From assembly GCF_030704535.1 (NCBI RefSeq), contig NC_081822.1, positions 878,001 to 942,000 of the forward strand: 64,000 nucleotides of DNA. The letters are read 5' to 3'. The DNA comes from Vitis vinifera. Its lineage: Eukaryota > Streptophyta > Magnoliopsida > Vitales > Vitaceae. Position numbers and translations under genes: made by a program. Below the pieces are notes generated by a model that saw only the letters and a program-made list of their open reading frames with translations, had not been told where the DNA came from and searched no databases. Shown here piece after piece: positions 34,777-57,997 of this stretch (positions are counted from its first letter, which is position 1; every line of letters starts with the position of its first letter).

Positions 34777-37700
34777 CTAAGGGCAAGTACTACCTAAAGA
34801 ACTTCCCAGATGATGAGAAATTTGATGGATGGCGAGCCTTATCACGTGGTTCTGAGACGATCCGCATATGTCCTTACACTCCTCAAAATCGGCCTCACAT
34901 GTTAACAACACCCACTCTAAGTCATCATCCAAATACTTGAGATGGAATCCACTGCTGTCATCTATATTGAATCGCCTCCCAATTTCTTGCCGCAGGTCTT
35001 TTAATCCCCAGTTACTTTGCATCCGGAAACGGATCTTCTCATCCCCATACGTGACCTTCACTCTCCAGGCATCCCCTTCTTGAGATGCCAGGCTACCACT
35101 TTGTGGTATGGCTGGATGACTCTCCAGATTAGGGCACTCGGGGAGAGATTTATGGCTCTGGGATCTTGGTAGGAGCTTTAGCTCTTCTTGACTTGAGATG
35201 GGCAGTTCCACCTCGCTTCTGACCCTCTTTAGCATACCTTCTGCGGAGTTTTCCCCGACCATAGGATCACTGCCAGTGACACTACATGTGGAAGGATGTT
35301 CCTGAGTCCCAGTGGAACAGCACTGACTTGAACTGGAACTCGGGCTGCATGAAGATGAAAGAGATTTTGATGCAGCAACTCCAGTGCTGGAATTGTCTCC
35401 CTCAGGTTGAACGCTTAATGGATTTTGGTGATCAAAAAGCTTTGAAGTTGAATATGGGTGGGTTCCTGATAACTCTGGCGAGGCCAGTTCTGGGAATTTT
35501 GAATAGAAGTTACCGATTTGAAAAGCACCAGATGCACCTTTGACTGAGTCGATCACAAGTTGTATTTTATGTAAGGAGTGACCAACCTTCTTAATTTTCC
35601 GAGAAGGCCAACGTTTGATCCCATGTTGCCTGCATATCCTTTTCAAGGTTGTGGGACAAACTGAAATTGAAGAAGCAGAACGGTTACAAAAAGAATCAAT
35701 TAGAAGTAAAACATAATTCAGCATAGAAAAGAACAGTTCAATTCCAGAGAAGATATATTAATTATTATTTTCCAATTAAAATTTTCCTAATAACTGAATA
35801 AAATCGCAGTTTATCATAGCCACGAAAGGCTCACTTACCTCCAATGCTCTTTGCAGCATCTTTTAGGCTCCCGGCGAAATATTGCTGAAGAACTTGCAGT
35901 GTGATGGTTTGTTCTGCCTTGCTACGTCTTCTTTCTCCTGTTTTACCCACACTAGATAAGCTACTCTTACCAAAAGTAGAATCATCTCTACAGTCAAAAC
36001 TTCCTTGTTGGCTTGAATCTTGTTGATGCTGTCTAAACTCCAAGGATTTTTCACTTAACCTTTCCCTCACTTTTTCCTTTTGGGATGGCGGGGTAATATC
36101 AATACTCTGTTGGGCCTCCTTGAGAGAGGCCATCCAGGATGACTGTTCTTGGGAAATTTTTTCGGTGGGTGTATGTTGCACCTTCTGTGTTTCTTCCCTG
36201 CCGGGACTTCCATCTGAGAGGACTGTCAATTCACTAACCAGGGAAGGAGTTTCCCCCTCCAGCTCCTTGTCTGTGACAACCCGTAGGCTCCGGCAAACCT
36301 TCTGTATGATGATGGACAATGAACAAAGCATCCCCTTTTGTTCTTCAGGATCCCTGCAATCTACAGGCAAAAAGAACTCCAAGACAAAGTCAGACACAGG
36401 AACGTGAATACTCCGCAGGCGTATTGCAACAGCAGCACACAGTCCAAACATCCTCGCATGATGAGAGAGGGGATATTGAGTCTTGCTAAAGGAGGTTATG
36501 TCAGCTGAGAAGCACGGTTCATTAGTTGTGAATGCTCTTCCAGCAATGCCTTGACCTTTCAGTAGGTGGTGCTCAGAGCAAGCCTCATGAAAACCCTGGG
36601 TACGGGGATCAGCTACACAACAAGCAGAATCCACAGTGGAAACACAGTGGATGTAGTTCCCATCAGTGTGCCGGGAGCCCCATTTACCTTGTTGGATGCA
36701 TGGGACCCAAGTTTGAGCCAAAGGCAGTCCATGTGTTCCACAGGCGGATGTCAAGACCTCTAGAATCTCGGGTAATGCGGCTTGGTAGAACTTGTTGCAT
36801 GCCTGATTTAACCAAAAAAAAAAAAAAAAACTAATCATAATCTTAATAAAGAAATTAAAACTTTTTATTGACCAATTTTCTTTTGCAACTATCATCCAAT
36901 TACCTTTACATTCCTTGTGCTCAGAACTTCAGAACTCCGCAGATCAACAGCCTGTGAGTAAAAAAATTTATTAGAACATCAAGACATGAGTTTCCCTTAT
37001 CCTCATTAAATTGCATAAGCAAAAGCATAACCTAAATCGGGGGTAAAACAATAAAAGAGAAAATTTGAAGGAGTGTAATGGTACTTCATCAAAATAATAT
37101 CAGTGTTACTGCTTACACTATTTACAATGAAAGACAGGGGAAAGCATAACAACCTGAATAGAAACAATTAAAAATGGAAATTTCTGAACTCAAAGGACCA
37201 CAAATTTTTTTTTCCCATTCCAAATTTTTTTAAAATAAAAAATAAAAAATTAGGGCTTCAAATGCCTGAAATTTCCTTGATTTGAACCTTAGATGGAAGG
37301 AGGCCAAAAACTCTTTCTGATGGTGAAGGGCAAGAATGGATGAAGATCAAGCTCATAATTGTATCTAATGTGATTTTAGAGGTAATTTTACTTTTCTTCT
37401 TTCGCAGCAATCACGTGTACGGAAATAAATTTATTTGCATGAGTTAATATTGTTAATAATCAAAATTTTCTTTAAAATAGTCACTAATTTCAGAGAAGTT
37501 CAAATCGTTCTTCATCTATGGAAATCCCAAATACAAGTCTATGTTGTCGAATGTTCAAGATGTTCAATTGTCTTCCGGAAGCTATAATGATACTTGTGGA
37601 TACAGTATTATTTTTAAATCAATAATCCATAAAAGCCGAGGTAAACATTCAATCTTCAGCTGCAGACCTAAAGATATGAACTGAAGACCAAAGTGGGCTC

Positions 37701-39197
37701 TATCAGCATGAAAAAATATGAATTTCCAATTCCTTGTGTGAAAACAAGACCATGAAGGAAGAAGCCACTGTTCTATCCCAAATTTGGAATTGTTATGCCT
37801 TAAGAAAGAGCCCAATGGATAAGCATTCCATTCCCATCTGCAGCAAATGCACATGATCAAGTGCATGGTTACATGACTGTAGCAGTTCAAGTCAGAGCCA
37901 CCTAGAGTAAGCTCTAATCCCAGTAATAAAAAAAAATTAAAAAATAAAAAAGGAAATTACATAATCCAAAAATTAGGCAAGAAATTGATGGTATTGAGAT
38001 GGAATAACCCAAAATATTGTTCACGAGGGAATCATGGATTTTTTAAATTATGCTTAGCCATACAAAAAAAACTACACCCTATACTAAGGCCCAATATGTT
38101 TTGATTGGACATATAGAATTCTAGACTGTTTCTTTTGCGGAATGACAATACTTTCACCTTGTCAAGTCAATGATCATACCAAAATAAAAGGCAATTCTCC
38201 AAGCACTTCACATTCTCAAAAACAAAACTTCAAATCCAAAAGGAAAGTCGGGAATCAAACAGAAATAATGGAATTCTGAATACGAGCAACAGAAACAAAC
38301 CTCAAGTGCTTTGCAGACGCTTTCCAGCTCAGGACGATAGTTACTCTTTTGAGTGGTCATCACAACCTCAATAACACCCAAGCATGTCTGGCTGCCTTGT
38401 TCAAAAACTGGAAGTGCGAGAGTTCCACGGACATCAAAATGTTGAGCATAGTCGACTCTAGGGTACTCCTCACTTCTAAAGAAGCGAACATCAGGAGTCC
38501 ACTCAGGAACCTTGCCCAAAAAAACTCGCCCAGGCAGTCCAGCCAATTCATTGGAATCCTCCTCAGCTGAGAACTGATAGCTCACAGAAATGTCTCTATA
38601 CCTTGCAAGCCTCGGGCAGCTGGGATCGAGCGAGAAAGGTTGGTCATTAGTTGTAAGAACTCTTCGGCCACCCCTATTTACTGGCACCCATATTTGAATA
38701 AGTGCGTCTTTATTTTTTGTGGAACCTCGTATGTAACTAAGTGCTCGAATTAATCTCTCCATTACAGTAGATGAAGGACCCGGACTTGACTTGGGTCGAA
38801 TCCACCACCTTCTACTAAGATCAAAATCATCCATTAAATAGTTTTCTGATTGAACTGGATACCCTGCAACATTTGTCATACTCTGACTAAGAGACTGAGT
38901 TTTATCAGTGCTTTCTACGGCGTTCCCAGGGAAGTTTGATCTTTGCGTCTCTTCCTGGATGTTATTTGCAGATAGATTTGCACTCAAATCGACATTATTT
39001 GATCCAAAAGTAGGCCATAAAGATGAAGGATCAAAGACAGAACCAGAATTAGATGGACTCTGTAGCAAGAACTCAGATCCATCAGTTGTCTCTAACCAGC
39101 ATCCTCCTAAAAACAACTCGTCCATGAAATCCAAATCCATGGAGGAATCAGGAACAGTGCCCAAAGCAGTTTCTGGTGGGGGTGCTCCATCTTCCAT
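34777..39197 (-). CDS. NLP4: NIN-like protein transcription factor (RWP-RK plus PB1), NLP4/5 type
   Basis: Nuclear DNA-binding regulator of nitrate-responsive genes by family. Coding exons on the minus strand are 38301-39197, 36904-36951, 35839-36802 and 34777-35660; they total 2793 nt, giving 930 aa plus stop. The N-terminus ([20 protein letters not shown]) resembles my recollection of the NLP4/NLP5 subgroup. A GAF-like N-terminal response region (about 150-560) contains [14 protein letters not shown] and the [18 protein letters not shown] stretch. The RWP-RK domain straddles the exon 3/4 junction: [20 protein letters not shown], then the diagnostic RWPSRK. A Ser-rich linker follows, then a C-terminal PB1 domain beginning [14 protein letters not shown]. 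The ATG at 39197 is the downstream copy of a duplicated start region (see uORF). Exons 1, 2 and most of 3 lie in the tandemly duplicated segment; the gene itself is intact. Confidence 0.93.
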
Positions 39198-39311
39198 GAT
39201 GATCTTTCTATAAGACCCAACCTACCAAATCTTAAGCCGTCCAAATTGCTCCATCTTCCATAATGAACTTTCTTCAGAAACCCACCAAGCAAATCCTAAC
39301 CCATCCAAATT
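39184..39311. repeat. 64-bp tandem duplication across the NLP start codon
   Basis: 39184-39247 and 39248-39311 align end to end, both starting GCTCCATCTTCCAT and ending CCATCCAAATT or CCGTCCAAATT, with scattered mismatches. The NLP start codon (39195-39197) lies in one copy and an equivalent ATG (39259-39261) in the other. Confidence 0.85.
39232..39261 (-). promoter_or_regulatory. Upstream ORF of 9 codons in the NLP 5' leader
   Basis: The duplicated start region gives ATG at 39261-39259 reading MEDGAIWTA then TAA (39232-39234). It repeats the first five residues of the main protein, then stops. It is 64 nt upstream of, and out of frame with, the main ATG. If it lies in the mature leader it could lower translation of the NLP mRNA; I see no convincing intron border between the two ATGs. 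Confidence 0.6.
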
Positions 39312-40658
39312 GTGCAAGTCTCAGGTTCCAAAGAACAATTTGATGTGAAATGTAACATCAAAAAGGAACTCTCAGGATAAATTCCTCCTCCCACTCTTCA
39401 AAACCCTAATCTGGTCAAATAGGGAGAAAAAAAGAAAAAAAAGGAAAACCTAAGCAGAGATGAAGTTCATATCAAGATTAGGTTTCCCCTTTTCTGATGA
39501 TATACATGTCCAACATGATAACATCACTCAAGAAAATGACAGGAAGAGTGATTAAAGAGCAAAACCCATTTCAAAACTGCCAAATCCATCAAACTAAATT
39601 AAATTCAAGATGCAAAACCAAAAGAAACAGAAAAGAAAAAGGGGTTTAAAAAAAAAAAAACCAATAACAGCACACTTTCAACAGATTCTTCAATCAATAC
39701 CTTTCCCACCCACTTTTATTCATGATTCTAGTCCTACCAAAAGGAAAATAAAACCGAAGTACACCAAAATCATTACATCCAAATCATAAATTCCACAAAA
39801 CAAAAAAACATTAACAGGAGACCCAAACCTTAATTCACTGTGTAGAGAATCTCGAAGATTCCCAAATGAAATATGGGTATTTCTTATATTCAGAAAAAGA
39901 TGATATACTCTGGAATACCCAAAATCTGTCCCAACCCAAGAAGGGAATACGAGGCTTTTAAGAAGGTATGGCGTACTTGTGAAATCTCAGCCACCACTTT
40001 CTCTTAGTTATTGCCTTTCTTCACCGCTCTCCTTTTTTTTCATTTCCTTTAAATTCTTTATTATATTGAGATTTGATTCCAAGTTTACTGCATTTGCGTG
40101 TGGGAAGATTCTCCTCTCCAAGCTTTGGGACCCACCCAGCTTCCTTGGGATTCTCGTTCAAGTCAACACCACAAGCCAACTGTACACAGGGAGAAAACTA
40201 AGAGATTATGAGCTGATCTTCTGATCTTCAGGATTGGCTTTTGATTTGGAATCCGATTTCTTCGAAGTGACCAAATTGGATTTGTAGAAATGGGTTTTTC
40301 CCCCACTTTTCTCTGTTTGCCTTTTAGCACTTTTCTGATGCTCTCTTTAGACTTTACATTGAATGTGACCGCCCCTACGGTCAAATTTAAGGAATATCGC
40401 TGCCTCAATTTTCAAATATCATGGCTTTGCTTTATTCATTTGTTTACATAATAGAAGGGATATTAAAGAAAAAGATCTCATTCAAAGAGGATAAGAATTT
40501 TCCAAAGCATTATAAAATTTTATACCCATTTTGAAAGCAATAATTCATCTCTCCAAGATTTTATGCTATAGTTTTATAGTATTTTCAATAATATCATAAT
40601 AATCAAAATTTTATATTACATTAATATTTGATTAAACAAAATAGAAGTTATTATTTGA
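39312..40658. other. NLP leader and upstream region
   Basis: No gene on either strand. Low-complexity A runs (39420-39450, 39645-39660) and a pyrimidine-rich stretch near 39970-40060 fit a 5' leader with possible introns and a promoter, but I could not place a transcription start. Confidence 0.4.
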
Positions 40659-40663
40659 AATAG

Positions 40664-43050
40664 TGTGGACCCCGCATTTCGATTGCTCGATGCGTTTCCC
40701 ACTCGATGGCGAGCTCGAATTTTAATTTGAAAAATTGATTTATATTGATTATGAAAATGACTTGGAGTCGCCACTTATTTTTGTTTTATTTTTAAAGGGT
40801 AAACAAAATAAGAAAGAAAAACCCTAAGTGTGACTCCTTATTTTGGAAAAGGTGGTCTGTGAAAAACCGGATCGGGTTCGGGGGTCAGGTTACTTATCAG
40901 GAAGGTACGGTAAAAACCGTAGCACCCTTCTAAGTCCCTAAAAACGGGTCTCTACTAATAAAATGAAGCAATCATGGCAATTGATGAGGAAATCAATGAA
41001 TACTCAGAGTGATCATGCACACGTGAGAATTTAAACGTGCATATCGAAAATGACCAGAGCGGATGTAGATGCGTACCTGGGCAGTGATCCATGAAGCGCT
41101 ATCAAGAAGTGACGTTAGTGCACAATTAAGAAATAATAGCATGCACGTCGTAGAGCAGGATAAATAAATAGCGCGTGACAAACAAATCAATCAATCATAA
41201 AATCACGTATGTGGGGCCCCCACCAAAGCCCGATTGATCTTGCACGAATTAATCTCACAAATTCCATTGTTCTGAAATTATGAAAATGACATTCACGCTT
41301 ATCTAAAATTAAGAGAAAAAGAAGATTATTTGAAAACCAAAGTGGAATTAAAATTGTTCGAGTGAAAACTGGATTTTTGAAATTTATTTGAAAATTGAAG
41401 TCCCGAAGATTATCTGATAATTGGAGCCTTGGGAATTGAATTTAAGAATGGGAAAAAGAAATTGGAATTTTTTTAAAAGGATTTGAGAATTGGTGTCTTG
41501 AAAATTAAATTTAAGAATTGGAACTTTGAAAATTAAATTTTAAAGAAATTGGAAATCTTAAAATTATTTGAGAAGTAAAAATTGTGAAAATTAAATTTAA
41601 GAATTTGAGTTTTAGAAACTAAATTTAAAAGAAATTTGAATTTTGGAAATTATGAGAATTTGAATTTTGAAAATTAAATTTAAGAATTGGAGTTTTAAAA
41701 ATTAATTTTTGAAAGAAATTGGAGTCTTGGAAATTGAATTTACGAATGAGAATTTTGGAAATTATTTAAATGTTGAATTTTTAAAAATAAACAAATAAAT
41801 AGGTGAGTAAAATGATAATGATTAAATAAATTGATATGAAAATTGAAATTTCGAAAATTGGAATTTAGATTTAAAAAATGGAAATTTATACGATTATTTG
41901 AAGATAAAAGTTTTGGGAATCAAAATTTTAGAAAATTAAAATAAATAAATAAAGATAGAGAATTAAAATGGAATGGTGGTGCACACGCGTGAAAGGAAAA
42001 AAAAACAAAGGCAATTTAAGTGGAGGAAAACAGTGAAATAATTAAATAAATAAATTGGGTTAGGTGGCTGCATAAGAGAATGGGAAGAATGGAAATGAGT
42101 TGACCAAGTTGGGGCCCTCATTCCAAGCTTCACTTCTCCACGTGTTCAACTTCCTCTTGTTCTCCTCCCTTCCTCTCAGCTACCACAAAAACGAAATGGC
42201 CTTCCTCTTAGTTTCTTCTTTCCCCTCAAAACCGCTCATCCATGGACATAACCCACACGAACCAGAAAATAATAATAAGGGAATTCACAGCTCATTTTTG
42301 GTAAAGGCCACTCAGCATTTTCCGTTCCTAGCCTCACAACCCAACAATGAACTCACCAATTTAAAATAACATGTATGGCAGAAAAAAAAAAAATGCTGGG
42401 TAACATGAAGCATATGAACCCATATATGTTATAGCCTCAAGTGAAATCACAGAAAATGAGAAAATGACATAGCAATCACATTCAAATGGTGAATGAAAGC
42501 TAAAACAACAAGGCAAATGCATGAATGTGAAAATATAATGAGAAACATGAACAGAAGAAGAAAAAAAAAAAAAAAACCGCAAAGCACGCACCTAGAAAGC
42601 TCTTCTCCAGCAAAAATCCGTGAGAAAACCCCTCAGTTCTTCCCTTCCCCCTTTCTCATTTTCTCTCCTTCTTCTTCAAGCTTCACTCCCTCAGATCCCC
42701 GGAACCCGCTAGCCACCCCTCTCTTTTTTCCTTCTATCTCTTTTTCTCCAGCCGATTCCTACCTTCCCGGGCAAGCCATTACCTGCTTCCCTGTTCATCT
42801 CTCAGCAGGTATGGGCTCCTCCAACTCCAGCATGGCCTCTGCCACGTCTCTTTCTCCCCCATCTCAGATAATATTTTCCTGCTTTTTTTCCAAATCCCTT
42901 CTCACCTTCTCGGGCAAGCCATTCTGCCTACTGTTAGACGTCCCATCTCGTCGTCTCCTTCAGCTGAAATCCCGGGATGGTCCGAATAGTCATCATGATA
43001 GCAAAAAATAAAATGGCCTCTAACTCCTCCTCCCCGGGAGGGGGTCTACA
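40664..43050. mobile_element. Solo LTR of an LTR retrotransposon (2387 bp)
   Basis: The unit starts TGTGGACCCC and ends GGGGTCTACA, an inverted terminal match with the expected TG...CA borders. It is flanked by a perfect 5-bp direct repeat, AATAG, at 40659-40663 and 43051-43055. The left part contains GGAGTCGCCACTTATTTT and an ACGGGTCTCT word that I associate with large plant Gypsy-class LTRs; that class call is weaker than the LTR call. There is no gag or pol, so the internal part was lost by LTR-LTR recombination. The pyrimidine-rich ORF at 42493-43011 is not a gene. Confidence 0.88.
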
Positions 43051-43055
43051 AATAG

Positions 43056-43324
43056 TAAATTTATAATATCTCATATAAAATAAAAAAGTAAATTTCTTAC
43101 TCTATATAATTAAGCATCAAAGTAAATCATAAACGTGGTATTTATTTGGTCTTATAATTTTATCAAGCAAAAACATCCAACATTATATAAAAATAAGTTT
43201 CACTTAATAATAGAGATATGTCGGTCCTAGACCTAGAATTTATAACATAGTCTTAGTTTTAAGATATAATTTTAAAATTTATATTTAAACTATATTATAT
43301 CATGCTTTTAATAAATTTTAATAT
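43056..43324. other. Short AT-rich stretch, nothing recognisable
   Basis: No ORF, repeat or homologous segment elsewhere in the window was noticed between the solo LTR and the duplicated intergenic block. Confidence 0.4.
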
Positions 43325-44955
43325 TATTAAACTATTTAATATTTTTTTACTCTTCAAAAGATCAATGGGAGACTTTGTATAATAATAGGAAGCTTCATAA
43401 TTACAAAGGCCCTAAAGATAGCAATGGGTTGATGAAATCTATCTCAATTACGTAATTGAGTTGGAAAAAATCTACTCCTCATAGTTCCAAGCGATGGGGC
43501 CAAGGCCCCCAAGAATCCATTATTTAATAAAAGTAAAAAACAAAATCCAATTTCTAACACATGTGATATGAAATGATGTGGTCGGTCAGTATGGAAAAAA
43601 GTAACTGAATGGTGATGATGAAAAATGCCTAAGTTCAAAAAAATTTCAGCACAAGTGGCGGAGGAAAAGAATCAGAGAGCCGGAATCTGATTAATGATTT
43701 TCCACTGGGCAAGTGGAGAATACATATTAGTTGATGGATCCTGGTTTTTCAAATGGGTCATGGATGATTTTGGAAAGAAAAGAAAGGCTTGACTAATGGC
43801 ATCTGATTCAAAAACGGTGGGCACTAATTCTAAAAGAATCCCAACAGATGTATTTTACACTCTTATCTCTCACGGACATGGGACAAATTCATTTTCACTC
43901 AGATTCCATGATCGTGGAGACTAAAAATCAGTCGTAGGAAAAGACAGACTAAAAAAAGAATAAGGTGGCTTTGAAGAATTCAAAGTTTATATCGAAGTTA
44001 GTAGTTAATGTTTGCTTGTGGCATAATTTATTAGAAATTGATAGAAAAATCACATGATGTATGAGTTTTAATGAAATATCATGTCTCATGGATTTTACCG
44101 TCTATTTTTAGTAAAATAATTTCAATCAAATAAATAATAACTATTTTAATATGACTTAGGATTATCAAGACAATATTAAATGATGAAAAATATATTATCA
44201 ATAAAAAAATGTTACGTATATGTCTCAATCTCATTTTGATTGTATTGTTTTATATTTGTTGTCTTACTATAATATGCTCTTATTACTTTAAATTACTATC
44301 TTAATTTTTTTGTTTTAATTTTATATATTTATATTTTAATTCAATAATCTAAATTTCATTATATATTTAACCCTTCATAATCGGAAGTTCAGTATTCACT
44401 AAATTGATGCCATCTATTTTTCCCCAAAAAAAAAAATAAATAAATAAATAAAAAGGTTTTAGGGGTGCACTGAGGGCACACGGAATATTACTTACTATAT
44501 TAGCATAAAACAAGCCTGTAAGTTGTAAAGGTGGATTGTAGATGATTTGGAAAGCTTCACTCCCTCTGTTTGGGCAGCTTGGCTCCTTCAATGATGCTTC
44601 CCACCCCAAATCATCATCTGGACCACCGTGTCCCTAATCGGTCCCTTTTTATGCTATGAGCCTATGCCTGCAGCTCAGTCCTCGGTAAAATAAAATAAAA
44701 AATAAAAATTCAGGTGATTGTAACAGAGGGTGGCCTAGAGTGAGACAGCTGGGATAGGAAAAAACTGAGTGGCCTGGAAAAATCGTTTTCATCGACTGAT
44801 TTTAGGTAGTTTTTTTTCTTCATAACTTTGGTTTTATCATGATTTATTATTTAGAAAATTAAAAATAGATCGAATCCCATCCATGATAATTTACATATGT
44901 ATGAGTATATTTATTCCGTATCTATTAGTTTTTTTTTGACAAATGGTACAGATAG
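43325..44955. repeat. Duplicated intergenic block, left copy
   Basis: Aligns with 49655-52162 after removing two insertions from the latter. Shared landmarks are AACTATTTAATA at the start, the CATGTGATATGAAAT segment (43558 and 50405), TTAGTTGATGGATC (43729 and 50587), GGGCACACGGAATATTACTT (44473 and 51707) and GTGGCCTGGAAAAATCGTT (44770 and 52010). It is non-coding. Confidence 0.8.
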
Positions 44956-45022
44956 ATGAAACTCGTGTTATGCATCAGCCCGATTATTTAAGTCATAAAA
45001 ACAATGGAGGAGCTGCAGTTAC

Positions 45023-47096
45023 CTGTCTGGTGCAAAGGACCCGGTATCTCTCTCCTGACCAAGGATGAAAATATCGGTAATCACGGATATATCGGTACTT
45101 CGATTTTACGGATATATCGGATATATATCGGCGGATATTGGAAAAAAATTTGGTAGACTTAAAATTATTAAAAACTCATAGAAATGTAAGGAAAACCTCA
45201 TAATAATATAATTAGAAGTATAATGGACATTTTAAAGTTGTTTTATTAAAAATTTTGATATATATATATATGATATAATTTGCGATATTAGATATAATTA
45301 TATCATGTTAATCTATAAAAAATGTTAATTTTGTAATTGTTCTCATTATAAAGTCACATAAAATACTTTATTTCATTAAATATCAATAATTTGTACACAT
45401 TAAATTCATTAAATAAACATATTTCATATTCAAAATATACTAGTTCATGTTAATTAAATTAATTAAATAATTTAGCATATTAATTAAATTAATTAAATAA
45501 TTTAGCTAAGTTAACTAGTTTAATTTAATTCTAAATGTGAAAATAAATCACAAATAATAATCTAAAATAAACATATCAATTTATAATTAAATAATCAAAT
45601 TAACCTAAGTTAATTCAATAAAAATATAAAAATTAATTACAATTGAATGTAAAAATAACATTAAATCATCCATATTGCAAACATACTAATTAATTGAAAA
45701 TACATGAGCTAATTACAATTGCAAACAAAATTAATTACAATTTAAATTAAATATACCTCAAAATGATTAAATAATTGAGCAACTTTAATAAAAATTGGAG
45801 TAATGAGAGAGCAAATGAAGAATGAAAGAAAAAATGGATGAAATAGATGAAATTTGGGCTATTTATAGAAGAAATTTGAGCCAAAATAGTCGTTGGAACA
45901 TTAATTTACCATTGAAAATCAATTTTGGCCGTTGGATCAAAATCTGGGAGCAATCTGGCCGTTGGATTGCCATATTACCATTGGAATCACATCTAGGCCG
46001 TTGGATCAACACGGATGTGATTTGGGCAGTCAGATCATGTTGCATAAAGGAGGGGAAATATCACAAAAAAATCATGTTGCACCGATATTTTGTCACCAGA
46101 GGCGATTTTTTCAAAATATCTCTGATATATCTCCCAGAACTGATATATCGCCGATATTTTGGCGATATTTACGGAAATATCTCTCCTCCGATTTTTCTTC
46201 ACGAAATATCGTGTCGACCCCTCCCGATACACGATATATCGGCGATATATCGCCGATATATCCCGACATTTTCCTCCTTGCTAGGAGGCTGCTTGAAGTT
46301 GTTCTCCTTTGGAATGATGCACTGCATTATCCAATAGCCTTTGTCTAAATATATGTTAACAGACACTTGCGTATATATTTTTTTCAAGTTTATTTTTTAA
46401 TCAATTCGTTCTACTAGTAAAATTCAAAATGGACCCAAAAGGCGCCCTCTTACTTTTCTTAATTTCTAAAAGCAAAAGGCAAATAATATCATGTTTAGCA
46501 GGAATTTAAATATTAAAACTACCTTTTTTTTAAGAACCCAAACAAAGAAAAAGGTGTATTGCAGTTGAGGGAAAGCATTATTTGTTTTAAAAAGCAATTT
46601 ATTATTTCCAAGTGTGTCTAGGATGTGGAAACTGTCACAACTCCACACCAAGTAAGCTGATAATTTCTGCCACATTAGAAAGAGTGGGAGGATTATGCAT
46701 GATATCACTTTTAAGTAGATCAAATGTGGCAAGATGCCTAACCGGTTTAATCAATGTGGAGGTGAGGTGGCTCCCACACCCAATGCAGACCTTTTGCCTT
46801 CAATCCACCAACTATCCTCACCAGCTGACGCCAACACAACCCCCACCAAGTTGATATAACCACATAACACTCACCGCCACCACTTTAGATGTCACCACAC
46901 AACCATGAACATTATCCTATTCCAAACTAATAAATGCACTGGGTTCATAAAATCGAATGAGTTTGAACCCAATACTGGTTTATTGTTTATTGAGTTAAAA
47001 TTCTACATCAAATTTAAACTTAACGCTAAGGAATTAGAGGGCCTGACCTTTCCATGCCTACCAGTGCAGAAAGCAGGAGGAATGGGGTACCTCTCA
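45023..47096 (-). pseudogene. Catalase 3' fragment (exons 6' and 5'), interrupted by a transposon
   Basis: 45023-45057 plus 46287-46321 together reproduce catalase exon 6 (53156-53223), and 47048-47096 reproduces the 3' part of exon 5. Introns and flanks match as well, for example 46440-47040 with 53335-53950. Exon 6' has an extra C (GGACCCGG versus GGACCGG) and a large insertion; exons 7 and 8 are missing. The upstream side of exon 5' is fused to NLP exon 3'. It cannot make catalase. Confidence 0.9.
45058..46286. mobile_element. About 1.2-kb non-autonomous DNA transposon in catalase exon 6'
   Basis: The intact exon reads CTCTCCTGGCTGCTTG; the copy reads CTCTCCTG, about 1.2 kb, then GGCTGCTTG, so the insert is defined to within a few bases. 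Its ends are inverted: CCAAGGATGAAAATATCGG on the left matches the reverse complement of CCGACATTTTCCTCCTTG on the right. Both subterminal regions are packed with GATATATCGG/CCGATATATC words, some forming palindromes (46200-46265). Inside, a GGCCGTTGGAT word recurs near 45929, 45957 and 45992, and a 30-bp unit is tandemly repeated at 45451-45510. No transposase is visible. The target duplication is unclear, so the superfamily is left open. Confidence 0.8.
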
Positions 47097-49647
47097 CTCA
47101 ACCTCTCCCTCACTTTTTCCTTTTGGAATGGCGGGGTAATACTGCTACTCTGTTGGGCCTCCTTGAGACAGGCTGTCCAGGATGACTGTTCTTGGGAACA
47201 TTTTTCAGTGGGTGTATGTTGCAGCTTCTCTGTTTCATCCCTGGCGGGACTACCATCTGAGAGGACTGTCAGTTCACTAACCAGGGAAGGAGTTTCCTCC
47301 AGCTCTTTGTCTGTGACAACCCTTAGGCTCGGGCAAACCTTCTGTATGATGATGGACAATGAACAAAGCATCCTCTTCTGTTCTTCAGCATCCCTGCAGT
47401 CTACAGGTAAGAAGAACTCCAAGACAAAGTCAGATGAAGGAACATGAATACTCCGCAGGCGTATTGCAACAGCAGCACATAGTCCAAACATCCTCGCATG
47501 ATGAGAGGGAGGTTACTGAGTCTTGCTAAAGGAGGCTATGTCTGCTGAGAAGTACGGTTCATTAGTTGTGAATGCTCTTCCAGCAACGCCTTGACCTTTC
47601 AGTAGGTGGTGCCCAGAGCAAGCCTCGAGAAACCCTTGGGTACGGGGATCAGCTACACAGTAAGCAGAATCCACAGTGGCATAGTTCTCATCAGTGTGCC
47701 GGGAACCCCCTTTACCTTGTTGGATGCATGGGACCCAAGTTTGAGCCAAAGGCAGTTCATGTGTTCCACAGGCAGATGTCAAGACCTCTAGAATTTCGGG
47801 TAATGCAGCTTGGTAGAACTCGTTGCATGCCTGATTTAACGGAAAAAAACCCTAATCATAATCTCGATAAGGAAATTAAAACTTTTTATTGACCAATTTT
47901 CTTTTGCAACTATCATCCAATTGCCTTTACATTCTGTGTGCTCAGAACTTAAGAACTCCGTAGATCAACAGCCTATGAGTAAACAAAATTATTAGAACAT
48001 CAAGACATGTGTTTCCCTTATCCTCATTAATTGCATAAGCAAAAGCATAACCTAAATCTGGGGAAAAAATAAAAGAAAAAATTTGAAGGAGTGTAATGGT
48101 ACTTCATCTAAATAATATCAGTGTTAATTCTTACACTATTTGCAACGAAAGATAGGAGAAAGCGTAACAACCTGAATAGAAACAATTAAAAATGGAAATT
48201 CTGAACACGAGGGACCAGAAAATTTCTTTTCCCGTTCCAAAAATTTAAAAATAAAATAAAATTAGGGCTTCAAATGCCTGAAATTTCCTTGATTTGAACC
48301 TTCGCTGGAAGGAGGCCAAAAACTTTCTGATAGTGAAGGGCAAGAATGGATGAAGATCAAGCCTATAATTGTATCTAATGCAATTTTACTTTTCTTCTTT
48401 CACAGCAATCACATGTATGGAAATAAATTTATTTGCTTAAGTTAATATCTTCAATAATCAAAATTTTCTTTACTATAATTTCTAATTTCAGAGAAGTTCG
48501 AATCGTTCATCTATGGAAATCCCAAATACAAGTCTATGTTGTCGAATGTTCTAGATGTTCAACTGTCTTCCAGTAGCTATAATGATGGTTGTGTATACAG
48601 TATTATTTTAAAATCAATAACCATAAAAGCCAAGGTAAGCTTTCAATATTCAGCTGCAGAGAAAAACAACCAGGCTATAGACCTAAAGATGTGAACTGAA
48701 GACCAAAGTGGGCTTTATCAGCATGAAAAAAATATGATTTTCAATTCCTTGTGTGAAAACAAGACCATGAAAGAAGAAGCCTCTCTTCAAGCCTAAATTT
48801 GGAATTGTTATACCTTAAGAAAGCTCAATGGACAAGCATTCCATTCCCATCTGCAGCAAATACACATGATCAAGGGCATGGCTACATGACTGTAGCAGTT
48901 CAAGTCAGAGCCACCTAGAGTAAGCTCCAATCTAAGCAATAAAAAGAAAAAAGAACAAGGAAATTACATAACCCAAAAAGTAGGCAAGAAATTGACAATA
49001 TGGAGATGGAATGACCCAAAATATTGTTCACGAGACAATCATGGATCCTTTGAATTATATGGTTAGCCATACAAAAAACTAGACTGTTTCTTTTGCAGAA
49101 TGACAATACCTTTCACCTTGTCAAGTCAATGTTCATACCAAAATAAAAGGCAATTCTCCAAGCACTTCACATTCTCAAAAACAAAACTTCAAATCCAAGA
49201 GGAAAGTGGGGAATCAAACAGAAATAATGAAATTCTGAGTACGATCAACAGAAACAAACCTCAAGTGCTTTGCAGACGCTTTCAAGCTCAGGACGATAGT
49301 TACATTTCAGTGGTCATCACAACCTCAATAACACCCAAGCATGTCTGACTGCCTTGTTCAAAAACTGGGAGTGCAAGAGTTCCACGGACATCAAAATGTT
49401 GAGCATAGTCGACTCTTGGGTACTCCTCAGTACTTCTAAAGAAGAAAACATCAGGAGTCCGCTCAGGAACCTTACCCAAAAAAACCTGCCGGGGCAGTCC
49501 AGCCAATTCAATGGAATCCTCCTCAGCTGAGAACTGATAGTTCACAGAAATGTGTCTATACCTTGCAAGCCTCGGGCAGCTGGGATCGAGCGAGAAAGGT
49601 TGGCCATTAGTTGTTAGAACTCGCCAGCCACCCCTGTTTAATAGCTT
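47094..49647 (-). pseudogene. NLP 5' fragment (exons 1' to 3'), fused to catalase exon 5'
   Basis: Exon 3' is 47094-47830, exon 2' 47925-47972 and exon 1' 49260-49647; they match the NLP gene exon for exon, with introns also aligned. Defects: an in-frame TAA after SKTQ (about 47514-47516); a 12-nt loss near 47680; a GT to GC donor change after exon 2' (TTGCCTTTAC versus TTACCTTTAC); an in-frame stop near the end of exon 1' (MTTEM then stop, about 49301); and truncation of exon 1' at about 49647, losing the first 170 or so residues and the start codon. At 47094-47096 the frame runs straight into catalase sequence. Confidence 0.92.
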
Positions 49648-49688
49648 GCATCCTTCGTAATACCTTAAACTATTTAATACTTTTAATC

Positions 49689-50233
49689 ACGGGGGAATTA
49701 TTTTTGGGGTATATGGAACCTCAAATTAACAAAAGTTCCATATAACTTTTCAAATTGAGTTGAAGGATATGAAATAGTAACAGATAAATATACCCTTTAA
49801 GAACACATATAAAATATTTTATAAAATTAAGTTAAATAATTTTTTTTCAATAATTTTTTTTTCAAAAATACTAAATTAAATAAAAGTAGTTTTAAAAAAT
49901 ATTAAATTAAATAATTTTTTTTCAAAAATATTAAATTAAAATTTTTTTCGAAAATATTAAATTAAATTAAAGTATTTAAAAAAATATTAAATTACATAAA
50001 AATATTTTTTTTAAATATTAAATTAAATAAAAAATATTAAATTAAATAAAATTATTTTTCAAAAATATTAATTTTTTTCTCAAAATCAACAAAGGGCATT
50101 TTTTGAAATACTGAAGGATGATATCCTTCAACTCAATTTCCATATTTTCATTAGGTCTTGGGCTCAATTTGAAGAGTTACATGGATCTTTTATTAATTTG
50201 AGGGCCCATCTACCCCCAAAACATAATTCTCCC
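49689..50233. mobile_element. MITE with long terminal inverted repeats (545 bp)
   Basis: The left end (GGGGGAATTATTTTTGGGGT onward) matches the reverse complement of the right end (GGGAGAATTATGTTTTGGGG onward) over about 80 bases, including CCTCAAATTAA and AATTGAGTTGAAGGATAT. TTTAATC flanks both sides (49682-49688 and 50234-50240), a 7-bp, perhaps imperfect 8-bp, target duplication. The interior is an array of AAAAATATTAAATTAAATAA-type units. The insert is absent from the matching site in the left duplicate (about 43340), so it postdates the duplication or was lost there. Confidence 0.85.
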
Positions 50234-51107
50234 TTTAATCTTCCCAGATTAACGAAAGAGTTTGTATACTAATAGAAAGGTTCATAATTACGAAGGATGC
50301 AATCTATTTCAATTACGTCATTGGGTTACAAAAATTCAATCTTGCGACTGGGTCATGCCCACCAAGAACCTTTATTTAATAAAAGTCAAAATCCAATTTC
50401 TAAAACATGTGATATGAAATCATGTGGCGGGTCCGTTTGGATGAAAAAAAAAAAGTAATTGAATGGTGACAATGAAAATTGCCAAATTATAAAAATTCGC
50501 AGTATAAGTGGTAGAGGGAAAGAATCAAAGACCCGGAATCGGACTAATGATTTTCCACCAGTTTGGGCAAGTGGAGGATGCATATTAGTTGATGGATCTT
50601 GTTTTTCAATGTGGTCATGGATGATTATGGAAAGAAAATGGAGGGCTCTGACTAATGGCATCTGATTCAAAAACCTTGGGCACTAATTCTAAAGAATCCC
50701 AACGGATGTATTTTACACCCCTTTTCTCATGGATATGGGATAAATCCAATTTCACTCAAATTCCCACATGACTAGTATTTAGGCATCATGAAATTTAATG
50801 AAATATCATGTCTCATTCATGGATTTCGTCATCTATTCAAAGCTTTAACCAAATAAATTATCAGGTATTTAGATATGACCTAGGATCAACACCACTTTAA
50901 AAAGGGTTTATAAATGATACATTTTTTAATATCATATAAAAATGCATCATCAATAAAAAAGAATGTCACGTGTATATCTAAATTTCATTTCAATTGCATT
51001 ACTTTGTATTTATCGTCTCATTACTTTGTAAATGCTTTTATTATTTTAAACTATAATCTCAATTTATCGTCTTGGTTTTATTTATTTATATCTTAATTCA
51101 AAAATTT

Positions 51108-51449
51108 GAGAATGTTTTTGACAATATTTTTATTTAAAATATTTTTGTGAAAGTATTTTCTCTAAAGATGTTTTTAGAATATATTTGACAGCGATTAAAA
51201 AACGTTTTTAGCTTTTCTAATACTTAAAAATAAAATTTTTCAAATATTAAAAATATTTCCTATAATCATTATCAAACGCACTCTTAAAAAAATTATTTAT
51301 TAAAAAAATATTATAAAATGATTTTTTAAAATTATAAGTGATTTTTTTAGATATTTAAAAATGACTTGTATTTTATCAAATATCTAATTTTTTTTAAAAC
51401 CACTTTTAAACCTAAAAACACTTTCTAGAATAATTGTTAAATGAACTTT
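51108..51449. mobile_element. AT-rich MITE-like insertion
   Basis: In the left copy AATTCAATAATCT joins AAATTTCATT directly (about 44340-44358). In the right copy about 340 bases intervene. The insert's ends are imperfect inverted repeats of the form ATGTTTTTGACAATATTTTT against the reverse complement of AGAATAATTGTTAAATGAAC, reminiscent of hAT-type MITEs. The exact target duplication was not resolved. Confidence 0.55.
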
Positions 51450-52162
51450 AAATTTCATTATTTGTTTAATCAAATCCAAATTAGAAGTTCCATATCATCA
51501 AAAATTGATCCCATCTATATTTCCCTTTTTTTTAAATAAAAAAAAAACATAAAAAGGTTTCGGGGCTAATTAGATCGTGAGGGTGACAGGAGTGGATTTT
51601 GTAATTTAGGGCAAATTAATATAGTCATGGGCCATGGCTGCCTTCCTAAAAAGGAAATATTTTAGGGGTATGGGAGGTACAGAGGTACCACGGCTGGGAA
51701 GCACAGAGGGCACACAGAATATTACTTATTATATTAGTATAAAACATTCCCTTAGGGAATGTTTTCCAAATCATCCACAATCCACTTTTAGATGATTTGG
51801 AAAACATTCCCTCAGTTGGGGCAGCTTGGCCCCTTCAATGATGCTTCCCAACCCACCCCAAATCATGTCATCTGGACCACCATGTCCCTAAACCTGCTTT
51901 CCAGTTTCCATCTATCTGTCCCCTATTATGCTAAAAAAATCAGATTATTGTGACAAAGATGGCTTTTGAGTGAGACAGCTAGGGTAGGAAAAAACAGAGT
52001 GGCCTGGAAAAATCGTTGTCATAGATTGATTTTAAGTAGTTTTTTTTTTCTTCATAATTTTGGTTTTATCATGATTTATTATTTAGAAAATAGAAAATAG
52101 ATAAAATCCTGTCAATGATAATTTACATACATGACTATATTTATTCTATATATCTATTAATT

Positions 52163-52805
52163 TCTTTGTAATGTAAATTTTTGCATTGTAATATGAATTT
52201 TGTCATAAATTATTGTAATTATGACGCATAGGGTATTCATTTGAATTGTATTAAAATCATCTGACCAAAAAATAAAAGCTCTTTCGCAAATTCAATTTAA
52301 TAAAAACTTCCTTTAAAATCCATGTGTGTTTTTTTTTTACTACAAATATTTGGTTCACTAAAAATATTTGAATAAAAGGACTATCAAACGTACTCGTTAT
52401 TCTAAGCAATTTGAAGCACTTTCGATGGGAAGATGCAACTTAACCATAGGATTATGAAGCACTTCTGATGGGAAGATGCTGCTTAACCATAGGATTCACC
52501 GTGACCCTATTACTATTCGTACGGATGCAGCCAAAGTTGGATGCAAACAAAATGAAAATAAGGGCAGAAAAGCCGAAAAAACCTGGTATCATCATATCAT
52601 TTGCACATAAATCCTCACTTTATTAAGATCAAAACATCAGTTTGAAGAGTCACATGTCTAGTGAGTTTGTTTAGTATATTATGAAATCAATATACCACAG
52701 TAATCAAACGATTGATAAAAGGTTTATGCTTCCAACCAAGTACCTTCTGCTCCACATTTGATATTGTTGGCTTGCTCTCTGTAACTCAAAACATCCAGCT
52801 GCATT
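52163..52805. other. Catalase 3' UTR and flank
   Basis: Non-coding. It contains the proposed polyadenylation signal and a short direct repeat: AAGCACTTTCGATGGGAAGATG at about 52413 recurs near 52457 as AAGCACTTCTGATGGGAAGA. No ORF is supported. Confidence 0.5.
52619..52624 (-). terminator. Probable catalase polyadenylation signal
   Basis: AATAAA on the minus strand lies about 180 nt beyond the catalase stop codon, in the normal range for a plant 3' UTR. The assignment is by motif and distance only. Confidence 0.45.
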
Positions 52806-55800
52806 TCAAATGCTTGGCCTCACGTTGAGACGAGATGCTAGTTTCTGACCCAGAGACTTGTCAGCCTGAAGTTTGGAGCAATGACATTAGTACTTGATTT
52901 GACACAGAAGGAGTTATGTTACTAGAGAAAGGTTCAAGAAACTTTGCAAGAGAAAGAGGTCTGACCTGAGACCAGTAGGAGATCCAGATGCTGCGGATCT
53001 CATAGGTGACGCGTGGATCAGATAAAGCATCAACCCAGCGCTGGATGAATCTCTCTTGCCTGGGAAAATTTTGATAAATGGTACAGATAGATGAAACTCA
53101 TGTTATGGATTAGACGATCATTTAGTTATAAAAACAATGGAGGAGCTGCAGTTACCTGTCTGGCGCAAAGGACCGGTATCTCTCTCCTGGCTGCTTGAAG
53201 TTGTTCTCCTTTGGAATGATGCACTGCATTATCCAATAGTCTTTGTCTAAATAAATGTTAACAGACACTTGCATATATATTTTTTTTCAAGTTTATTTCT
53301 TAATCAATTCATTCAACCAGTAAAATCCAAAATGGACCCAAAATATATAGAGGGTGCCTTAATTGTCTTACTTTTCTTTCTAAAAGCAAAAGGCAAGCAA
53401 GGCAAATAATATCATGTTTGGCAGGAATTTAAAAATTAGACCTGCTTTTTTTTAAGAACCCAAACAAAGAAAAAAGTGTATTTTAGTTGAAGGAAAGCAT
53501 TATCTGTTTTAAAAAGAAATTTATTCTTTCCAAAGTGTCTAGGATGTGGAAACCGTCACAACTCCACACCAAGTAAGCTAATAATTTCTGCCACATTAGA
53601 AAGAGTGGGAGAATTATGCATGACCAACCTTCACTTTTAAGTAGATGCCTTACGGGTTTAATCAATGTGGAGGGGAGGGTGGCTCCCACACCCAATGTAG
53701 GCCTTTTGCCTTCAATCCACCAACTATCCTCACCAGCTCACGCCAACACAATCCCCACCAAGTTAATATAACCACATAACACTCACCACCACAACTTTAG
53801 ATGTCACCACACGACCATGAAATTATCCTATTCCAAACTAATAAATGCACTGGGTTCATAAAATTGAATGAGTTTGAACCCAATACTGGTATATTGTTTA
53901 TTGAGTTAAAATTCCACATGAAATTTAAACTTAACCAAGGAATTAGAGAGCCTGACCTTTTCACGCCTTCCAGTCAAGATAGCAGGAGGAATGGGGTACC
54001 TCTCAGCATGACGAACAGGATCATACCTTGAAGGGAAGTAATTGACCTGCAAATAGCATTATCACTCAGACTTCAAGGAATAGAGAGAGTAAAAAAATGC
54101 AAACACCAGCTTTTTGCCCATAGAGAGTAAAAAATAATAAAGTACCTCCTCATCCCTGTGCATGAAATTCATGAAACCTTCATGATGATTGTTATGATGA
54201 GCACACTTGGGGGCATTAGCCGGGAGCTGCAGATAGTTTGGTCCAAGGCGGTGCCTCTGAGTATCAGAATAGGAGAAGATCCGAGTTTGTAGCAACTTGT
54301 CATCTGAATAGTAGACACCAGGAACCACAATAGCAGGGCAAAATGCAAGCTGTTCATTTTCAGCAAAGAAGTTGTCAATGTTCCTGTTCAAGACCAGGCG
54401 ACCGACTGGTTGCAGGGGTAGTATGTCCTCAGGCCAGGTCTTGGTGACATCAAGTGGGTCAAAGTCAAATTTGTCTTCATGATCAGGATCAATTGTTTGG
54501 ATGAAAAGTTTCCACTCAGGATAGTTCCCAGCTGCAATGGAGTCATAGAGATCCTGAGTGGCATGGCTGTGGTTGCTTCCTCCAACCCTGATTGCCTCTT
54601 CTTCCAACAGACACTTAACCCCACAAGTGGGTTTCCAGTGAAATTTCACATAATGTGCTTTTCCAGCCTTGTTGATCAGAGTATAGGTGTTCACACCAGA
54701 TCCTTCCATGTGCCTGTAATCCTGTGGAATACCTACATCATCGAAGAGGAATGAGAACATGTGCAGGCTTTCTGGGTGGTGGGAGAAGAAATCAACAATC
54801 CTCCAGTTCTCCTGGATGTGGGACTTAGGATTGGGTTTCAGAGCATGGACCATGTCTGGGAATTTCATTCCATCACGGATAAAAAAGACAGGGAAATTGT
54901 TTCCCACTAGATCAAAGTTACCCTGTGTCCACAAAAAACGGTACAAAGTGAGTATATAGAGGGAGTATAAATCTTATAAGCTCAAACAATCTGGAAATTT
55001 CATAGAGTAACACAAAACCAATTGTTTACCAAAAAGCAACTATTAGTTATGGAAAAATGTTTGAACATAAAACTGATCTTGAAATGTTTCACATGTATTC
55101 ACACACTTGTGTTTCTAGGACACAATATCCCATACATGAAAATAGAAAGCTCTCCAATAACCTGCAAAAGTGTGCTTTTGCAGCCATCTAAAATACCTTT
55201 TTAATATGAGAAAGAGCTCCTCAAGGTTGGTCAGCGGTGCTAACTTAAGCCATTCCCACATGCAATGCAAAGCCCATCAGTCAACAACAGAATAAATTCC
55301 AATTTTTGACTGATAAGACCAGCCAATTGCAGCAGCTCCACATATAGAGCTTTAAAACTGTTATGGTCCTATAAGTTGTGGTAACTTCATCACTTGCACA
55401 GGCTTAAATTTTCCTTCTAGAAATTTCTGTAAAACCTAAAATTTTTGGCATGGGTATTAACAATTGGGGAATGCAAAAGGCAAGGTCTTGCACATCATTG
55501 TTTCAGTGAGTCTTGGTGTATCCATCAAATTAGTGGCTGTCAAAATAATCTCTATTATCACTTGGCAATATCAAAAGAATATCCTATCATCCAATAACTA
55601 AAATAAAAGAAAGCAACAATTAGACAAATCCTCACCTCTCTGGTGTAAAACTTCACTGCAAAACCTCGAGGATCCCTCAGGGTTTCAGGGCTGCCACGCT
55701 CATGAATAACTGTGGAGAAACGTAAAATGACAGGTGTCTGGACCCCTGGGGCTCGAAGGAAATCAGCACATGTAAGGTTAGAAATATCATGGGTGGTCTC

Positions 55801-57252
55801 AAAGAAACCCTTGGCACTGGCTCCCCTGGCATGCACAACACGTTCTGGGATCCGCTCCCGATCAAAATTGGCAAGTTTCTCCACCAGGTGATAATCCTCT
55901 AGGAGAATTGGACCTGTCAAAGAGCAGAATTCAAACCAATGAACATAGCTCCAGAAATCTCTATTAATTTTTAAGCCATGATTACAACCACATCACAGAA
56001 CAAAGCCCCAGACCCTAGCTTCAGCTGACGCATTATAACTTTCCTATTCGTAATGATAATCAGAAACACCTTGCTAAGAAACAGTCATTTGAAAATTGCA
56101 CAAAAATGTTTGAATACAATCCATGGCAGCATGAAGAAAAAGTACCATTGATGAAATTTGGGAAGAAATCTGCCAAGTCTTTCATAATGAACAGGGATTC
56201 TCATTTTATTCCCGGGCATAAATTCAGAATTTTATTGAGAAGGGAAAAAAGGTACTCCAAAATAAAAAACTGTATAACTAATGGTTAGATTGGGACAATT
56301 CAGTAAGCAAAATTTTTACTTAATCAGCAGTCTCTCAGACCTAATAAAACAGACCCAAACAAAGAGTGCAGAGTTTGAATTAATGAAAAAAGAAAATCAA
56401 TTTCACTAACGGAGTACATTCCCCAGTAGAAAGAAGAATCACGCCTATATAAGCTTAATATAGATGAACAATACTGATAAAAACCATATGAATTACATAT
56501 ATATATATATAACAAGTAGTAATCAAATACCTCTTGGTCCAACAGTCAAGGATGAGTTATTGTTCCAGACAGGAGCACCGGAATTGGTGGTCCAGAAGGG
56601 GGAGTTGTAAGCACTCGAAGGGCGGTACTGCATCAAATCAAGAAAAAATAATTAACCCCAGAACGAGAATCATTACGACAACAATAGCCAGAATCCAAGA
56701 CAGAAAACCGAAATCCACAGTCGTAACTACAAGGCCTGTTCGGTGACCGAGAAAAAAATCCAGATAACAAAGGAAAACAATCTTATTCTGCTTCCTAGTT
56801 CCTAAAAAACAAAATTTGACCCAAGCACTAGCCCAACTCCAATATATTTTGATTGTTTTCTGTTTGACCAAAAGGAAACCAATCTTATTCCACTTCCAAG
56901 TACCTAAAAAACAAAATTCCATTTTTCTCGTTTTCTCCGCAAGTAAAACCACAAAAACTTAACCGGTTCCAAATTTTATTCCATTTTCCTCTCATTTCCC
57001 GGCGACCAAACGCATCACGCTTTCCCACCCACATCACTAAGAAAACTCCGGTAAATGTAACACCAAAAAAGAAGAAGAAGATCGATGAAGAAGTACCAAA
57101 AAATTAGATGAATTTTTGTTTTTATTTTCCAAAATTAAAATCAAACCAGAAAATATCAAACGGACGATAAATCAAACACAAATACAATAAAAATCATTGA
57201 AAAAGAAAAAAGGAAAAAAAAATGATGAGATCGAAACCTTGTACGGATCCAT
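52806..57252 (-). CDS. CAT: Catalase (haem, peroxisomal), eight exons
   Basis: Breaks down hydrogen peroxide to water and oxygen in peroxisomes. Exons on the minus strand: 57238-57252 (MDPYK), 56531-56627, 55636-55913, 54146-54922, 53957-54046, 53156-53223, 52966-53059, 52806-52865; total 1479 nt, giving 492 aa, the standard plant catalase length. Visible hallmarks are the active-site histidine in [15 protein letters not shown], the catalytic asparagine in [14 protein letters not shown], and the haem-ligand tyrosine in [17 protein letters not shown]. The C-terminus ends SRLNVRPSI, the plant catalase tail with its internal peroxisomal-import information. All introns are GT-AG. Exons 5 (part), 6, 7 and 8 lie in the right copy of the tandem duplication, and the gene remains intact. 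Which plant catalase class it belongs to cannot be decided here. Confidence 0.97.
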
Positions 57253-57369: not shown

Positions 57370-57873
57370 CGCTCTTACGTCTCGCCCCGGCCTCAACTGC
57401 CTTATCTTTGATCACTGTGTAAACGTGGCTTTTTCTACATTTATAAAATTATATAGTAATTTTATTATTACTAATTATAACTATTTTCAATTTTTCTAAT
57501 TTATGATATTCAATTGAATTTTTTTAGTTAAATGTTAGAAATAAAAATATAGATATTTTTTTAATTTAGAAAATAATTTTATATAAAAAAATACAAAATC
57601 ATTTTTTTTTTAATTATAAAAATATTCACAAATTTTATGCTTTTTAAAAAAGAAAATCATTTTTGTAATGTACTCAATTGTGTCCTATGAATATGAAAAT
57701 GAATTTAAATCGGGACATTATCTCCGTTCATCGATTTTTTTTTATAGAAAAAATCATGAAAATATGTGGGAACGTCATGAATTCGCGATTCCTTATCCTG
57801 GTTTTGTAGTTTTTCTTCAAATCGTCACAGCCGCTTAATGGCGAGAGTGTGACTTGTTCCTGTTAAAATCCGC

Positions 57874-57879
57874 CACGTG
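57874..57879. promoter_or_regulatory. G-box (CACGTG), first copy
   Basis: Palindromic CACGTG within CGCCACGTGTAC, which also fits an ABA-response (ABRE-like) context. It lies about 620 bases upstream of the catalase ATG. G-boxes bind bZIP and bHLH factors and are common in light- and stress-responsive promoters; use by this gene is inferred. Confidence 0.55.
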
Positions 57880-57974
57880 TACTAACACCTTGAAGCACAC
57901 GGTTTTGTAGTTTTTCTTCAAATCGTCACAGCCGCTTAATGGCGAGAGTGTGACTTGTGCCTGTTAAAATCCGC

Positions 57975-57980
57975 CACGTG
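57975..57980. promoter_or_regulatory. G-box (CACGTG), second copy
   Basis: Same CGCCACGTGTAC context, exactly 101 bases from the first copy, produced by the tandem duplication. Confidence 0.55.
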
Positions 57981-57997
57981 TACTAACACCTTGAAGC

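Follow-up and report, generated by a model that had tools for sequence, protein, structure and literature searches.

A 64,000-nucleotide stretch of the Vitis vinifera genome (C18:878001-942000, hereafter the window) contains two intact genes on the minus strand, one encoding a NIN-like protein (NLP) and the other a catalase, and, between them, a decayed gene in which an NLP exon runs directly into a catalase exon. Two further copies of the fusion junction lie far from the window in this genome, each carried between the ends of a CACTA transposable element. The coordinates of the features are collected in Table 1.

The intact NLP gene encodes the GAF_NLP, RWP-RK and PB1 domains that together mark an NLP transcription factor, all three found with Pfam, and the Catalase domain spans residues 18-398 of the intact catalase protein. 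The latter gene is presumably VIT_18s0122g01320, an identifier listed as a catalase in one paper. A 97-base direct repeat (57800-57896 and 57901-57997, 99% identical) lies about 0.55 kb upstream of the catalase start codon.

The fusion junction and the tandem duplication

The fusion point is located at 47094-47096 on the minus strand (C18:925095), where the NLP exon passes into catalase exon 5 across a three-base overlap, TGA. Identity with NLP ends, and identity with catalase begins, inside these bases (47096-47094), which are common to both parents. The minus strand reads AGT GAG AGG (S-E-R) over 47098-47090, hence the frame is continuous over the join, and a previous sequence-only reading, which had reported an in-frame passage from KVRERLSE to RYPIPPA, is borne out. 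KVRERLSE corresponds to residues 559-566 of the 930 in the intact NLP, after which the sequence differs, while RYPIPPA starts at residue 405 of the 492 in the intact catalase. The residue spans given in that reading, roughly the first 565 of NLP joined to about 404 to 492 of catalase, agree to within one residue with the inferred original fusion, but do not describe the present locus. There, the NLP part begins at about residue 173, the first 172 or so residues having been lost, and the stretch with catalase exons 7 and 8 (52168-53068 in the parent) is deleted. The splice donor that was said to be retained is present, as GT at 47047-47046, directly after the catalase exon 5 part of the fusion. 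The in-frame join is in itself unremarkable, with a chance of one in three.

Self-BLAST of the window identified an NLP block pair (36051-38680 and 47094-49640), an intergenic pair in three pieces (43346-44935 and 50234-52167) and two catalase block pairs (44934-45057 with 53069-53189, and 46287-47096 with 53189-54005). Since these pairs are collinear and follow one order, they point to a tandem duplication with unit ends at about 36051, in NLP exon 3, and about 54005, in catalase exon 5. The copies end inside two genes and the fusion sits at their internal junction, which is the arrangement of a chimeric gene made by tandem duplication and the one that the sequence-only reading had proposed. 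A same-strand NLP-catalase fusion was automatic, because the duplication ended in two co-oriented genes. No similarity between the NLP end and the catalase end was listed in the window self-comparison. In BLAST, with gaps counted, the copies of the two main gene blocks are 87.6% and 87.4% identical; the gap-free Kimura distance is 0.081 for the NLP block (0.083 and 0.092 in its introns) and 0.065 and 0.070 for the catalase blocks.

Table 1. Features of the fusion locus, its parental genes and the captured piece, in window coordinates.
Feature	Position	Strand	Evidence or remark
Junction, 3-base microhomology TGA, in frame	47094..47096	-	Sequence read and parent gene models
NLP-derived half, beginning near residue 173; in intact numbering, codon 284 has a 2-base frameshift and codons 307 and 425 are stops	47094..49640	-	Self-BLAST, alignment to intact gene
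Catalase-derived half, from the end of exon 5 (splice donor 47047-47046) through intron 5 into the first part of exon 6	46287..47096	-	
Rest of catalase exon 6 and start of intron 6	44934..45057	-	
Tandem duplication copy 1, NLP exon 3 to fusion point	36051..47096		Self-BLAST, divergence
Tandem duplication copy 2, fusion point to catalase exon 5	47094..54005		Self-BLAST, divergence
Piece copied into CACTA elements, 98%	46627..47480		Copies at C18:14027593-14028451 and C12:21971385-21972243
Intact parental NLP gene, 4 exons, 930 aa; GAF_NLP 316-489, RWP-RK 615-662, PB1 836-916	34777..39197	-	Gene model and Pfam
Intact parental catalase gene, 8 exons, 492 aa; Catalase and Catalase-rel domains	52806..57252	-	Gene model and Pfam
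1.2-kb repeat splitting catalase exon 6 of the fusion; member of a high-copy family	45058..46286		Genome search
Searched stretch with a ~0.5-kb element with inverted-repeat ends (MITE-like, by eye), adjoining the gap of the lost NLP 5' end; high-copy family	49670..50240		

State of the fusion and traces of selection

The open frame of a working gene is absent at the fusion locus, which has no NLP start, a frameshift, two stops, an insertion within an exon and two missing catalase exons. Two fusion frames scanned in Pfam returned GAF_NLP only, with no Catalase domain. Both the decay and the absence of RWP-RK and PB1, as described from the sequence alone, are supported. The repeats in and beside the fusion were searched in the window's own assembly (495.6 Mb, 21 contigs), to which all genome searches refer. 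For the 1.2-kb repeat the best 40 of 2421 candidates were scored, many of them near full-length, and for the ~0.5-kb element resembling a miniature inverted-repeat transposable element (MITE) the best 40 of 704; as only the best candidates are scored, the repeat counts are lower bounds. By eye, the 1.2-kb repeat (45058-46286) is rich in CGATATATCG-type palindromes and has inverted ends.

A codon model comparing the fusion with the intact NLP over 382 codons, the two stop codons and gapped codons being dropped, gave an omega of 0.395 (dN 0.055, dS 0.139), and simple counting without transition bias gave a lower value of 0.30 (dS 0.168, dN 0.051). An omega of 0.53-0.65 would be expected had the fusion been free from birth, with the intact gene assumed at 0.06-0.3. 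Equally, taking the dS of 0.139 as neutral, a dN of about 0.074-0.090 is expected against the 0.055 found. Together with the in-frame join and the kept splice donor, this lower omega is what can be said in favour of a fusion that was once a functional gene, in which an NLP sensor region and a catalase C-terminal tail would have been expressed from the NLP promoter and later lost. Such a past is nevertheless unlikely. The frame would be kept by chance in one case out of three, the fusion has no Catalase domain, and, with the intron divergence of 0.083 as the neutral rate, a dN of 0.055 fits one free lineage. Moreover, values of omega up to about 0.6 lie within the usual likelihood interval (2 delta lnL of 1.98 at 0.55 and 3.15 at 0.6, compared with 5.87 at 0.7 and 15.2 at 1.0), and a period of constraint is neither needed nor firmly excluded by the data. 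No firm sign of past function of the fusion was found, and, judging from these substitutions, selective retention of its protein appears unsupported.

A CACTA element with an exchanged cargo

A 151-base query spanning the junction returned five places, three of which contain the whole junction: the window itself and two full-length matches at 99% (C12:21971715-21971865 and C18:14027971-14028121). The other two are the separate parental halves. An 854-base query (46627-47480) returned the same five loci, with the two new ones at 98%, and the homology ends at window positions 46627 and 47480 at both new sites. An assembly chimera had been named beforehand as the circumstance that could undo the junction. 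Such an artefact is very unlikely indeed and was rejected, since the copies of the gene blocks differ at 6-8% of aligned sites and carry separate insertions, and the junction is found at three places in one assembly, including two distant loci each with its own substitutions.

The C12 and C18 sites share an element of 4.65 kb with 98 to 99% identity in two aligned blocks; the comparison, made over 20 kb, listed no other shared block longer than 200 bases. The element has CACTACAAG-type ends, with CACTA-type terminal inverted repeats that start CACTACAAGAAAAA and end TTTTTGTAGTAGT(G) in C18 and C12, and GTAGTAATG in a third copy on C5; the right end of the C18 copy is without the last G. Target duplications of three bases were recognised by eye in all three copies, namely AGC (C18), GTA (C12) and CTA (C5). 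A duplication of 3 bp is listed for four grape CACTA families (PMC2528002), and that of rice and maize CACTA elements is given as 5 nt (PMC8903248). Between the ends lies a gene fragment, which is NLP-catalase in two copies and a piece of a GDSL-lipase array in one. A stop-to-stop scan of the C18 copy revealed no transposase-sized open reading frame (ORF): among six frames of at least 70 aa, the two longest (195 and 170 aa) are located within the captured piece or begin right next to it, and the other four measure 76-84 aa. The 4.65-kb element is a non-autonomous Pack-CACTA. Its C12 copy holds a nested 3.2-kb insert (about 21972840-21976070) that starts CACTACAAGGAAAAAGG and has AAC on both sides, apparently a member of another CACTA family.

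The captured piece begins at about NLP codon 437. Its copies could not serve as a clock for the individual lesions of the fusion, as the frameshift and the two stops all lie upstream of this start. Across the junction, the C18 copy keeps an open frame and the C12 copy has two stops. A 5-base gap and substitutions distinguish the window locus from the transposon copies. Exact 21-base words matching the parents number 120 of 839 in the C18 copy (85 catalase, 35 NLP) and 120 of 838 in the C12 copy (95 catalase, 25 NLP), with longest exact runs of 57 for catalase and of 42 and 29 for NLP. Through such shared words, small RNAs from the captured pieces might, in principle, match both intact parents, catalase and NLP.

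Searches with the two element sides and with the C5 cargo gave 78, 173 and 14 candidates, of which the best 40, 40 and 14 were scored. Among these, the C5 copy matches the two sides at 94 and 97%. It aligns end to end with the C18 element except in the cargo slot, where no NLP-catalase sequence was seen in this alignment and which holds about 1.1 kb of other DNA, 93% identical to C9:399031-400132. This donor lies in an array with GDSL-lipase matches. Of four frames scanned at the donor locus, two exceed the family cut-off (5.6e-7 and 2.4e-5), a third falls short of it (2.7e-4) and the fourth has no match. The lipase-derived frame of the C5 cargo (47 aa) and the corresponding donor frame (72 aa) reached no Pfam family, and the lipase name is taken from neighbouring frames of the donor array. 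The source of the C5 cargo, at about 397000-435800 of C9, is a run of tandem lipase-fragment matches. A more distant relative on C17, 84% identical over the right side, has neither the lipase nor the NLP-catalase cargo.

A trace of the lipase persists in both elements that carry the fusion piece. At the left edge of the slot, the C12 and C18 copies contain a 37-base remnant that matches the donor at 36 of 37 positions and the C5 cargo at 34 of 37; the best of 300 shuffles against the donor reached 24, as did the best placement in the C17 stretch. The remnant is followed by a second exact copy of 38 element bases, which occur again 0.9 kb to the right; C5 has one copy of these bases, and C12 and C18 have two. 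From left to right, the slot thus reads 37-base remnant, 38-base repeat, NLP-catalase piece and element, and the overlaps at the joins, assessed by eye, are AGC between lipase and repeat, none between repeat and catalase intron, and AT between NLP and element. The lipase remnant in C12 and C18 establishes that the replacement ran from lipase to NLP-catalase, and no NLP-catalase was seen in C5 when it was aligned to the C18 element. The series formed by C17, C5 and the C12 and C18 pair is consistent with an empty slot, a first cargo and a second cargo.

The place and make-up of the cargo also bear on how it was acquired. In the model published for Pack-TYPE elements (PMC8903248, PMC13317346), which has been put forward for Pack-CACTA of Arabidopsis, two neighbouring CACTA insertions around the NLP-catalase locus would have merged, and the composite would then have moved. 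This is improbable here. The cargo occupies the place of the older lipase cargo, outside of which the element aligns with C5 over its whole length, and neither the remnant nor the templated 38-base repeat is predicted by merging. Furthermore, the window has 7 and 2 matches to the CACTA-end patterns, compared with 4.4 and 1.2 expected by chance (up to 2 mismatches), and merging is disfavoured because none of them lies within 15 kb of 46627-47480. A more serious alternative, though still a rather unlikely one, is that the lipase cargo first took in the NLP-catalase piece with nothing lost, the rest of the lipase fragment being deleted afterwards. It would leave the same final structure, and the data show states rather than events; it needs two events, however, and no intermediate was seen among the matches found. 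The lipase cargo was largely overwritten by the fusion piece, most probably through templated break repair.

Sequence of events and comparison with known systems

The account that we propose comprises four steps. The fusion was made at the internal junction of a tandem duplication whose unit began in NLP exon 3 and stopped in catalase exon 5, presumably by microhomology-mediated joining or replication template switching. It decayed to a pseudogene. In the third step, 854 bases around the junction were copied into a non-autonomous CACTA element already holding a GDSL-lipase fragment, most of which was lost, with 37 bases left beside the second copy of 38 element bases. Here, a break in the lipase cargo would have been followed by resection, by synthesis copying 38 element bases and 854 NLP-catalase bases, and by rejoining; such repair by template-switching synthesis would account for the missing lipase sequence, the 37-base remnant, the 38-base self-copy and the brief overlaps at the joins. 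Finally, two sites with different 3-base target duplications are now occupied by the element with its new cargo. This account as a whole, from duplication through fusion and decay to capture in place of the lipase and presence at two sites, is considered very probable, and the fusion was likely already dead as a gene when it was captured. The broader claim, that the CACTA cargo slot is rewritten in place when break repair by template switching draws on unlinked host and element sequence, so that successive fragments are replaced and the window junction is one donor among them, is held with less assurance, as somewhat the better bet.

Gap-free distances fall in the expected order, from the duplication (0.081), through C5 to C18 (0.032 and 0.028 for the element) and fusion to captured copies (0.0154 and 0.0155), to the C12 and C18 elements (0.0072 and 0.0085). 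The lipase donor and the C5 cargo are separated by 0.055. The duplication therefore likely came first, followed by the capture of the lipase fragment, the divergence from the C5 lineage, the uptake of the fusion piece and, last, the spread of the element. The relative order of duplication and lipase capture is the least sure, since different sequences are involved.

Several observations weigh against this account. All comparisons were made within one genome assembly, and the NLP-catalase cargo was seen in only two elements among the matches found. The cargoes of C12 and C18 differ by 0.0166, more than the element bodies and too much for an order based on one rate. In addition, C12 sides with the parents, against the window and C18, at three alignment columns (one end gap and two transitions), a pattern which needs reversal or conversion. 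The intergenic blocks of the duplication have distances of 0.149, 0.244 and 0.118, compared with 0.065-0.081 for the gene blocks, and one event at one rate does not explain this faster divergence. Transitions make up 27 of the 32 changes in the most diverged intergenic block and 37 of 69 and 26 of 43 in the other two; local conversion or faster decay is a possible cause of the excess. The distances exclude gaps, and the gapped identity of the main gene blocks is lower (87.6% and 87.4%). Of the three repair joins in the slot, that between repeat and catalase intron has no overlap visible by eye, and C17, with its identity of about 84% over the right part, could have been emptied by deletion.

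Chimeric genes at tandem-duplication junctions combine the 5' part of one gene with the 3' part of its neighbour. The fusion described here differs in being a decayed pseudogene that was later partly mobilised, and it illustrates that, once a duplication has created a fusion, transposons can spread a piece of it to further sites. In a literature search of titles and abstract starts in a partial collection, neither an NLP-catalase fusion nor a cargo replacement was met. The Pack-CACTA and Pack-TYPE elements of Arabidopsis, rice and maize (PMC8903248) are alike in being non-autonomous CACTA elements with terminal repeats, target duplications and gene fragments, present in more than one copy; what differs is the present cargo, which is the junction of a fusion pseudogene and has taken the place of an earlier cargo. 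Capture of host gene fragments by CACTA elements is also represented in grapevine by Cactavine-5, which contains a PPR fragment (PMC2528002). Cactavine-5, however, is listed at 21-25 kb with a transposase ORF, whereas the element described here measures 4.65 kb and has no ORF of that size; the main text of that article nowhere uses the words GDSL, lipase or catalase.

The pick-up of unlinked host DNA by cut-and-paste elements is still argued. For plant Pack-TYPE elements, the merging of neighbouring insertions has been advanced (PMC8903248, PMC13317346), and for animal Pack-TIRs gap filling with template switching (PMC8277862). The gap-filled animal elements resemble the present case in their internal break points, in filler from elsewhere and in short microhomology at the joins, with a median of 2 bp compared with 3, 0 and 2 by eye here. 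They differ in that a plant CACTA element is involved here, its earlier cargo was partly overwritten, a self-templated repeat was left and more than one copy exists. The parts are thus of known kinds, and the useful part is the before-and-after record of the slot. Because the slot is seen in three states, with join scars and consistent distances, gap repair by template switching becomes directly testable in other grape genomes.

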